Assembly: GCA_016866335.1 (NCBI GenBank)
Contig: VGMT01000015.1
Coordinates: 1-56,267, forward strand
Length of the DNA: 56,267 nt
DNA from: Bacteroidota bacterium
GTDB lineage: Bacteria > Bacteroidota > Bacteroidia > CAIKAF01
Reading direction: 5' to 3'
The first letter of the stretch is position 1. Every line of letters starts with the position of its first letter. Below the pieces are notes generated by a model. The model was not told where the DNA came from, made no database searches, and saw nothing but the letters and a program-made list of their open reading frames with translations. Made by a program: the position numbers and the translations under genes. This document shows positions 23,245 to 49,170 of the stretch, one piece after another.

Positions 23245-23392
23245 GGCCCGCGGCAGGGATTGAAGCAGGTAGCCCACAGGGGCAGTGGGGCTGGCGGGGC
23301 CGGGGCCAAAGAGCGACCACAGGAAGCTACTTTGGCCCAAGCACCGCCCCCCACTGCGCCGAGGACTACCGCTGAAAGCCCGCAGCCGCCCC
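23245..23392 (+). repeat. GC-rich structured intergenic repeat, copy D
   Basis: 5' box GCGGCAGGGATTGAAGCAG and 3' box CTGAAAGCCCGCAGCCGCC. The inner stem is GTAG/CTAC and the apex is GCCAAAG/CTTTGGC around AGCGACCACAGGAAGCTA. It lies between the divergent aroQ and cystathionine beta-synthase promoters. Confidence 0.75.
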
Positions 23393-34784: not shown

Positions 34785-34930
34785 TGGGGGCGGCTATTCC
34801 AGCTATCGCGGGTAGTACACCAAGAACGGCCATGTGCCCAGCGGCTTTGCGCTGGCTCCTGAAGTCGCCTGCGCAGCTCGCGGGCACAAAGGCCATTCTT
34901 GTGCGCGCTACCCTGCTCTATCTGGGCCGC
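34785..34930 (-). repeat. GC-rich structured intergenic repeat, copy E
   Basis: Reverse orientation. On the minus strand GCGGC pairs with GCCGC, GGTAG with CTACC, and the apex is TGCGC/GCGCA around AGGCGACTTCAGGAGCCA. It follows the stop of the helix-hairpin-helix gene by 23 bases. Confidence 0.75.
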
Positions 34931-35013
34931 TACGCGCTAGAACTTAAGTCCCTCATTTTAGGCAAAAAACAATGGCTATATTACACGAAATTCAAAAAAA
35001 ATAAAAACGAGCC

Positions 35014-35044
35014 TTGACAATTGAAAACGACCTTCGTACTTTTG
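35014..35044 (+). promoter_or_regulatory. Strong orphan promoter (TTG-N20-TACTTTTG)
   Basis: TTG at 35014 and TACTTTTG at 35037-35044 are separated by 20 bases, close to the full Bacteroidota -33/-7 consensus. No protein gene follows on this strand before rpoC ends on the other. A perfect palindrome TTCATCGATGAA lies at 35048-35059, at or just after the expected start site. Confidence 0.6.
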
Positions 35045-35049
35045 TAGTT

Positions 35050-35215
35050 CATCGATGAAAAAATAAATGCTTCGTCACGTATTTGGGGTGGCGAAGAACA
35101 CTTAGGGTTCTTTTAGTTGTGAAGTGTGTATTGTGAATTTTAGGAGAGCCGGAAGGCAATTCGAAGGTTCACAGGGGTTCTCAGAACTGCTTTCCAAATC
35201 AATAGGGGAAACCTT
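35050..35215 (+). ncRNA. Candidate structured non-coding RNA
   Basis: Downstream of the orphan promoter the sequence folds into nested stems: CTTCGTCAC/GTGGCGAAG (35070-35096, one G-T wobble); ACACTT/AAGTGT; and TGTGAA/TTCACA enclosing AATT/AATT and a GCC-GGAA-GGC tetraloop hairpin. The only start codon near the 5' end opens a three-codon frame (Met-Lys-Lys-stop). It does not show the marks of tmRNA, SRP RNA or RNase P RNA. 6S RNA or a novel sRNA are possible. The 3' end is not defined. Confidence 0.4.
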
Positions 35216-35455
35216 GTTGAGGTGGGAGGCGGGAGTTTCGGGTATGAGACGGGGTGAAGTGGTAGATCATCCCATTTTCAGGTAGGGAAATTGGAAGGTA
35301 GAATGTATGGACTGTGAATGAGGAAGCAGGCCAAACAAATGAAATGTACGTTTCCTGAATTTTGATGGAAAGAGAGGGACAGTCCTAGAGGGGTCCATCC
35401 TGCCTTTAAGGTTTGGATGCGGCTCTATTGGTAGTGGCGTAAATTCTCGGGACAC
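35216..35455. other. Intergenic stretch without a recognisable gene
   Basis: G-rich on the plus strand, with local inverted repeats (for example GAAATGTACGTTTC near 35341). It may be the distal part of the candidate RNA. No supported reading frame. Confidence 0.3.
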
Positions 35456-35602
35456 GGCCCGCGGCAGAGATTGAGCGGAGTTGCCCGCAAGGGGCCTGCA
35501 GGCTGCCTGGGAAGGCTCAAAAGAGCGACTTTTGGAGCTACTTTTGGCCCATCTTCCCGGCCCAGAAGGCACCGCGGACAACCCTTGAAAGCCCGGTTGA
35601 CG
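35456..35602 (+). repeat. GC-rich structured intergenic repeat, copy F
   Basis: 5' box GCGGCAGAGATTGAGCGG and 3' box CTTGAAAGCCCGGTTGACGC. The inner stem is GTTG/CAAC and the apex is AAAAG/CTTTT around AGCGACTTTTGGAGCTA. It abuts the rpoC terminator. A 112-codon minus-strand frame across it is rejected. Confidence 0.75.
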
Positions 35603-35603
35603 C

Positions 35604-35631
35604 AAAAAAAAAGCGATTGGAATCCAATCGC
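35604..35631 (-). terminator. Intrinsic terminator of rpoBC
   Basis: On the minus strand GCGATTGG / CCAATCGC with a three-base loop is followed by nine T. It starts 25 bases after the rpoC stop. Confidence 0.92.
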
Positions 35632-48437: not shown

Positions 48438-48445
48438 CAAAAGTA
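48438..48445 (-). promoter_or_regulatory. Internal -7 box (TACTTTTG) before tRNA-Gly
   Basis: Exact TAnnTTTG match on the minus strand with a TTG 20 bases upstream of it, between tRNA-Tyr and tRNA-Gly. It would give a second start for the tRNA-tuf unit. Confidence 0.5.
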
Positions 48446-48489
48446 GGAAAATTTGCAAACAAATGCAATAGCATTGCTAAAAATTATAG

Positions 48490-48783: not shown

Positions 48784-48819
48784 TATTAAAACAGCGTTGG
48801 CCCCGAAGGGCCAACGCTG
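48784..48819 (-). terminator. Intrinsic terminator of the RNase P RNA gene
   Basis: On the minus strand CAGCGTTGGCCC pairs perfectly with GGGCCAACGCTG around a TTCG tetraloop, followed by TTTTAAT. Confidence 0.9.
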
Positions 48820-48821
48820 GG

Positions 48822-49164
48822 TTTTAATAAGCCGGGTTCTGTCAAGATCTGCCATTTATCTAGGATACACGTTGCCATGTACCTCGTTCAACCTACCCGT
48901 AAAGTTAACACCTAAGTGTTGGGCCAAGCCAGGCCTCAAACTTTACCTATTTGGTTTTTCAGCCTGTGGGGTTTTCCCTACCGTTTGTCTCCAAAAAGCA
49001 GTGTGAGCTCTTACCTCACATTTTCACCTTAACCCAGCAAGCTGGGATGTTTATTTTCTGTGGCACTTTCCGTCGCCTCGCGGCGCCTTCCTGTTAAGAA
49101 GCACAGTGGCTATTTGCTGCCCGGACTTTCCTCATGCTTTATTCAAGCACGCGACAGATTAAAA
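48822..49164 (-). ncRNA. rnpB: RNase P RNA
   Basis: Catalytic RNA that matures tRNA 5' ends. The conserved P4 strand GAGGAAAGTCCGGGC is near the 5' end and the universal 3' strand ACAGAACCCGGCTTA is near the 3' end. Intervening helices and the CCCACAGG-type region fit bacterial type A. Ends are estimated from the promoter box and the terminator. It lies just upstream of the tRNA cluster in the same direction of transcription. Confidence 0.93.
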
Positions 49165-49170
49165 ACCAAT

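Follow-up and report, generated by a model that had tools for sequence, protein, structure and literature searches.

An RNA gene candidate beside rpoC

The window analyzed here is the whole 56,267-nucleotide stretch of contig VGMT01000015.1 from a Bacteroidota bacterium (assembly GCA_016866335.1). On its plus strand, at positions 35014–35044, lies a predicted sigma-A type promoter of Bacteroidota, TTGACA ... TACTTTTG (TTG-N20-TAnnTTTG), where the first-pass annotation had reported a near-perfect TTG-N20 promoter; the match to TTG-N20-TACTTTTG is in fact exact. Taken alone, it is not statistically striking: 2.4 matches with one mismatch are expected by chance per 56-kb window, and a second exact match is found on the minus strand at 48438–48468. 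A single promoter match being within chance in 56 kb, the case rests on comparison between copies. The second match sits in a tRNA cluster, flanked by the genes for tRNA-Gly and tRNA-Tyr; RNase P RNA is also encoded there (48812–49170).

The 12-bp palindrome TTCATCGATGAA, previously placed at the expected start site, occupies 35048–35059. Because the flavobacterial −7 box spans positions −12 to −5 relative to the start (PMC9723704), transcription is predicted to begin at about 35049, inside the palindrome. From there a structured non-coding RNA of approximately 385 nt would extend to 35440 on the plus strand, as delimited by covariation, fold z-scores and the conservation boundary. A terminator at a fixed place was not found, so we infer the 3' end from the limit of family conservation, which a comparison of the copies' 3' ends puts near 35431–35440; the limit of 35455 given earlier is slightly too far.

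The stretch had also been described as lacking a supported reading frame, and the family bears this out. Different copies have their longest open reading frame at different positions and on different strands, and the length of 199 of 220 indels is not divisible by three. A protein-coding gene was accordingly rejected as an explanation, as a conserved frame is absent, the longest frames lie on both strands and most indels would break the frame.

Copy number and distribution

Judged by sequence comparison, the stretch is one member of a dispersed, high-copy and genus-restricted family of predicted RNA genes. A similarity search of the window's own genome returned thirty-one matches, many of them beginning at the promoter. 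The first hairpin yields a 23-base pattern that occurs exactly at 27 places in that genome (its reversed control at none), and a covariance model, built from family members themselves, recovers 27 copies; a 28th is cut off where contig C41 ends. The home genome (G000; 2.45 Mb) therefore holds at least 28 copies, which are 69–96 per cent alike across their matched stretches. Several related RNA genes with their own promoters in one genome (here 27 plus the contig-end copy) are what defines a paralogous, or sibling, sRNA family. Three congeners also carry the family: about 30 or more copies in LaPlata_bin-1703 (G003), about 14–17 in casp15-mb.160 (G004) and about 7–8, several of them decaying, in ErkenSummer_bin-6618 (G001). 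Draft metagenome-assembled genomes break at many copies, which makes these counts lower bounds and some of the synteny statements below weak.

Among the genomes sampled, the family was found only in these four closely related aquatic bacteria, to which it appears to be confined. It was not found in two further congeners or in ten genomes of other genera of the same order, and a covariance-model search of 395 Bacteroidia genomes gave convincing matches only in the four congeners; besides the congeners, 390 sampled Bacteroidia genomes are without a copy. The sole match outside them (L180; 29 bits) is a plain P1-like hairpin beside an unrelated gene and was rejected as a family member. Searches of phage, plasmid and IMG/VR collections yielded no family match. 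In Rfam 15, the window copy matches no family at the gathering threshold or at loose E-values up to 10, and four other copies match none at E-values up to 1; the suggestion of a 6S-type RNA accordingly finds no support, as no 6S match appears within those limits. No description of the family was found in the open-access literature.

Promoter and palindrome across the family

In nearly all complete copies from the four species, the −35 element reads TTGA(C/A)A and the gap between TTG and TAnnTTTG is exactly 20 bases, with rare exceptions. A palindrome of the type TTCAYYRRTGAA follows 3–6 nt downstream of the promoter, again in nearly all complete copies. We accept the promoter, which is of a strong housekeeping type, as real because TTG-N20-TAnnTTTG and the palindrome are kept together in this way. 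A search of the home genome with the combined promoter-plus-palindrome pattern retrieved almost only family members, the rest being chance-level sites; a regulator gene sharing the pattern was sought in the same genome, and only those family copies and chance-level sites emerged.

The center of the palindrome is TCGA, CTAG, CTGG or CCGG, depending on the copy. A CTGG center makes an imperfect DNA palindrome, yet as RNA it is self-pairing through G-U pairs. Because the center varies either symmetrically or as CTGG, the palindrome may be either an operator or a self-pairing 5' end of the RNA. In two copies, L112 and L159, it is altered on both outer arms (GACACTGGTGGA and GACACTAGTGGG, respectively).

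A conserved fold with invariant GGG runs

The stems noted in the first-pass annotation, a GCC-GGAA-GGC hairpin within TGTGAA/TTCACA, are present in the sequence, and the comparison with shuffled controls is also in their favor: positions 35044–35445 fold at −127 kcal/mol versus −105 ± 5 kcal/mol after shuffling (z = −4.2). Over 59 copies, the core fold has a mean z of −4.7, with values below −2 in 57. Across 26 diverse copies, 95 per cent of the cells are paired, and 27 of the 44 pairs have changes on both sides. Double-change cells number 110, versus 28.7 in shuffles and 15–29 with slid partners, and the RNAalifold result agrees with this count. Such covarying secondary structure is the mark of a structured RNA class, and it proves that the predicted fold is real and conserved through compensatory change. 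The earlier proposal, a non-coding RNA gene driven by a dedicated promoter, is likewise supported by covariation in these 26 copies, and we infer its transcription.

Across the family, the RNA is approximately 300–400 nt long. In the window copy, helix P1 (CUUCGUCAC...GUGGCGAAG; 35070–35096) has nine pairs, with 100 per cent of cells paired, and displays a GGG in its loop at 35085–35087. Helix P2 (ACUU/AAGU; 35100–35125) encloses a second GGG tract (35105–35107) and is also 100 per cent paired, with C-G replaced by G-C in 4 of the 26 copies. Helix P3 (35131–35173), the TGTGAA...GCC-GGAA-GGC...TTCACA element, shows double changes in all six counted pairs and is dispensable, being wholly missing from copies L035 and L141. 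An invariant unpaired GGG(G) tract (35174–35177) precedes the central domain P4 (35178–35250), in which a closing helix and inner helices (helices 4–6 of the covariation analysis) surround an internal loop with invariant GGG at 35231–35233 and 35240–35242. Hairpin P5 (35252–35273) has a conserved UGGC/UGGU loop and double changes in five of five pairs. The arm P6 (35274–35375) is hypervariable and often purine-rich; here the paralogs diverge most and the fold signal is weak. The 3' domain P7 (GUCCAUCC...GGAUG...CUAUUGG; 35376–35440) is where family conservation ends when 3' ends are compared. All of these elements lie on the plus strand. G occupies 19 of the 24 invariant unpaired columns, mostly in five GGG runs, and no invariant C run able to pair with them was found among the invariant columns.

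An improbable alternative places the molecule with large ornate RNAs such as GOLLD, ROOL and OLE; it would then form RNA-only or RNA–protein multimers and use its palindromic 5' end and G tracts for self-association. RNAs of this type are large, elaborate and of unknown or unusual function, and they form homo-oligomers (PMC12286853), to which the size of our RNAs, their strongly conserved unpaired bases and their self-complementary 5' dodecamer with its wobble-tolerant center would correspond. GOLLD and ROOL, however, are phage- or prophage-encoded (PMC12286853), whereas the present family is chromosomal, high-copy, absent from the phage collections and without an Rfam match.

Genomic surroundings

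The window copy does lie beside rpoC, as first described, but this is incidental rather than a family trait: at least 27 further copies adjoin unrelated genes, and no neighbor gene is common to the copies. Among the 54 copies for which both neighbors could be seen, the flanking genes (heuristic picks by open reading frame length) are convergent in 34 cases, co-directional in 13 and divergent in 7; adjacent gene pairs in the window are convergent in 5 of 45 cases. Because the copies sit mostly between convergent genes and their neighbors have no feature in common, the unit is best read as an independent gene and the copies, on this positional evidence, as stand-alone RNAs and not leaders.

The orientation counts also bear on the idea of a cis-acting leader or terminator element of neighboring genes. 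A location at gene ends would suit such an element, but each copy has its own promoter, the neighbors are unrelated and the downstream gene points in the copy's own direction in only 15 of 54 cases, being opposed in the other 39. A leader or riboswitch is thereby refuted for most copies, and we regard any cis-acting role as highly implausible.

The window also contains another dispersed repeat. This imperfect palindrome, which is GC-rich and approximately 145 bp long (GCGGCAGGGATTGAAC...GGCGACTTTAGGAGCC...GCCCGGCAGCCGCC), occurs at 35456–35605, about 23245–23382 and 1729–1873, with an apparent reverse copy near 34785–34935. It is present in tens of copies in G004 and lies near 15 of the 27 family copies in the home genome.

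Duplication, orthology and decay

Near-identical copies share a unit that starts just ahead of the −35 box and stops near the 3' end of the RNA. The window copy and its nearest paralog (on contig C1 of the home genome) share a longer segment of approximately 607 bp (34997–35603, plus strand; 95 per cent), which includes the downstream GC-rich repeat. Some copies have orthologs in other species (L018/L119/L130, L022/L118 and L035/L141/L107). In the orthologous pairs measured between the home genome and G003, identity from promoter to P5 is 0.73–0.97, whereas the flanks, at 0.40–0.56, are unalignable.

The rpoC spacer, where the first-pass annotation had suggested looking for conservation in relatives, does hold family copies in other species, but they belong to different subfamilies or have opposite orientations; the L015/L124 spacer behaves in the same way. 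In G003 and G004, one subfamily has expanded, in a burst-like manner in the former, and several copies lie at G003–G004 synteny breaks. Between these two genomes, a search for empty sites turned up only contig ends and synteny breaks. G001 has no element at the sites of home copies L021, L022 and others, and five comparisons of filled and empty sites with this genome revealed neither terminal repeats nor a target duplication. Two pairs of same-subfamily copies, L106 and L125 in G003 and L133 and L138 in G004, have exchanged neighbor genes, which suggests chromosome rearrangement by recombination between copies. Directly downstream of copy L122 in G003 begins a truncated gene fragment whose C-terminal end resembles a sorting domain; its G004 homolog continues into an apparently longer gene.

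At sites with an intact copy in the home genome, those that G001 retains show graded decay, their scores falling from 190 to 22 bits: damaged copies score 128.6, 92.6, 29.9 and 21.6 bits, and the home copies at those sites 132–220 bits. No decayed copy was found among the 27 of the home genome, all of which score at least 124 bits; the lowest-scoring are cut by a contig end or have no P3. We therefore read the intact home set and the graded wrecks of G001 as selection on the whole set in the one species and its relaxation in the sister, and the contrast argues for a shared, selected function.

The main rival to this reading is that the repeat is a non-autonomous mobile element, in which approximately 450 bp of DNA (the promoter and the RNA) are mobilized in trans by an enzyme whose gene lies elsewhere. 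In that case the RNA would be part of the mobilization machinery, and insertions would survive best between convergent genes. The discrete unit shared by close paralogs, the subfamily expansion in G003 and G004, the mixed occupancy of the rpoC and L015/L124 spacers, the empty L021 and L022 sites and the copies at synteny breaks all fit such an element. Against it, neither terminal inverted repeats nor target duplications were seen, the 27 home copies include no wreck, contrary to what neutral insertion should produce, the core of orthologous copies is preserved between divergent flanks, the phage, plasmid and IMG/VR collections hold no match, and TnpB is absent from the six congeners searched (control positive). 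On balance we consider mobility rather unlikely as the explanation, and it is not exclusive with an RNA family.

A further alternative makes the RNA the guide of an OMEGA-type nuclease (HEARO/IscB or a TnpB omega-RNA), its orphan copies being served in trans. The length is near that of HEARO (343 nt in Limnospira; PMC12286853), the copies are many, and their 3' ends border variable flanking DNA. However, TnpB is absent from the home genome as well as from its congeners, none of five copies matches HEARO in Rfam and, as a further difference from HEARO and omega-RNAs, a promoter lies inside the repeated unit, so that this reading seems very improbable to us. A search for the IscB-type RRXRR domain returned no match, its control being likewise silent.

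Nearest known families and proposed function

The nearest known family in kind appears to be FopS of Bacteroides thetaiotaomicron, with 14 paralogous sRNAs there and up to 15 members in a related species, although these are much shorter (approximately 65–70 nt, with a base-pairing seed; PMC11697453). FopS also supplies a functional precedent within the phylum. Both families belong to Bacteroidota and consist of many paralogous, mostly intergenic, scattered RNA genes; those of FopS have canonical sigma-ABfr promoters and are likely co-expressed (PMC11697453). By description, the present family differs in its at least 28 copies of approximately 300–400 nt, its large covarying fold, its start-site palindrome and its invariant GGG. 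At least 28 promoter-bearing copies of approximately 400 nt in 2.45 Mb are about twice the FopS copy number and take up roughly half of one per cent of this small genome, given over to an RNA class absent from Rfam.

RNAs of the CsrB/RsmY type carry the motif A(N)GGA, and those of the CsrB type titrate CsrA. They resemble our family in their repeated invariant G-rich loop motifs and paralogous copies (sibling sRNAs; PMC6262261, PMC4211561), a comparison of how they work only, since copies are far more numerous here and the motif is GGG. Stem-loop repeats provide a further comparison. Like bcr1 and other stem-loop repeats, the copies are dispersed and intergenic and have RNA secondary structure (PMC2267715, PMC6542083), but here a complete promoter accompanies every copy and selection acts on its long fold.

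Our proposal, held at even confidence, is that the copies constitute a co-regulated RNA family of very high copy number whose members act in trans and share a G-rich binding core. All copies would be switched together via the palindrome, acting as a repressor or activator site or as a self-pairing 5' end, and the RNAs would act in trans. The common core P1–P5 would offer its five GGG runs, which are invariant and unpaired, to a single partner shared by all copies. That partner may be a protein recognizing GGG within loops, comparable to CsrA with CsrB-type RNAs; alternatively, the runs may themselves form a G-quadruplex. Both options are compatible with the invariant runs. The hypervariable P6 may make copy-specific contacts or may drift freely. 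Copies would multiply through DNA duplication into gene-end spacers and be retained by selection on total dose, possibly also on individual arms. More tentatively, and with doubt outweighing confidence, we suggest an undescribed class of large multicopy RNAs with a multi-GGG core (possibly an RNA G-quadruplex), a diversifying arm and one start-site operator, which would rank, by copy number, with the largest co-regulated families of RNA genes so far reported from bacteria.

Loss of the partner or of the need would lead to joint decay of the copies, as we propose for the sister genome G001. The intact home set and the rotting sister set provide a direct handle for finding the partner via comparison of gene content. 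In one G001 region with a wrecked copy (L198; contig C56, 21700–24300), a CAGCCCTGAAGGGGCGTAATACGTCAGCGA-like short tandem repeat is also present.
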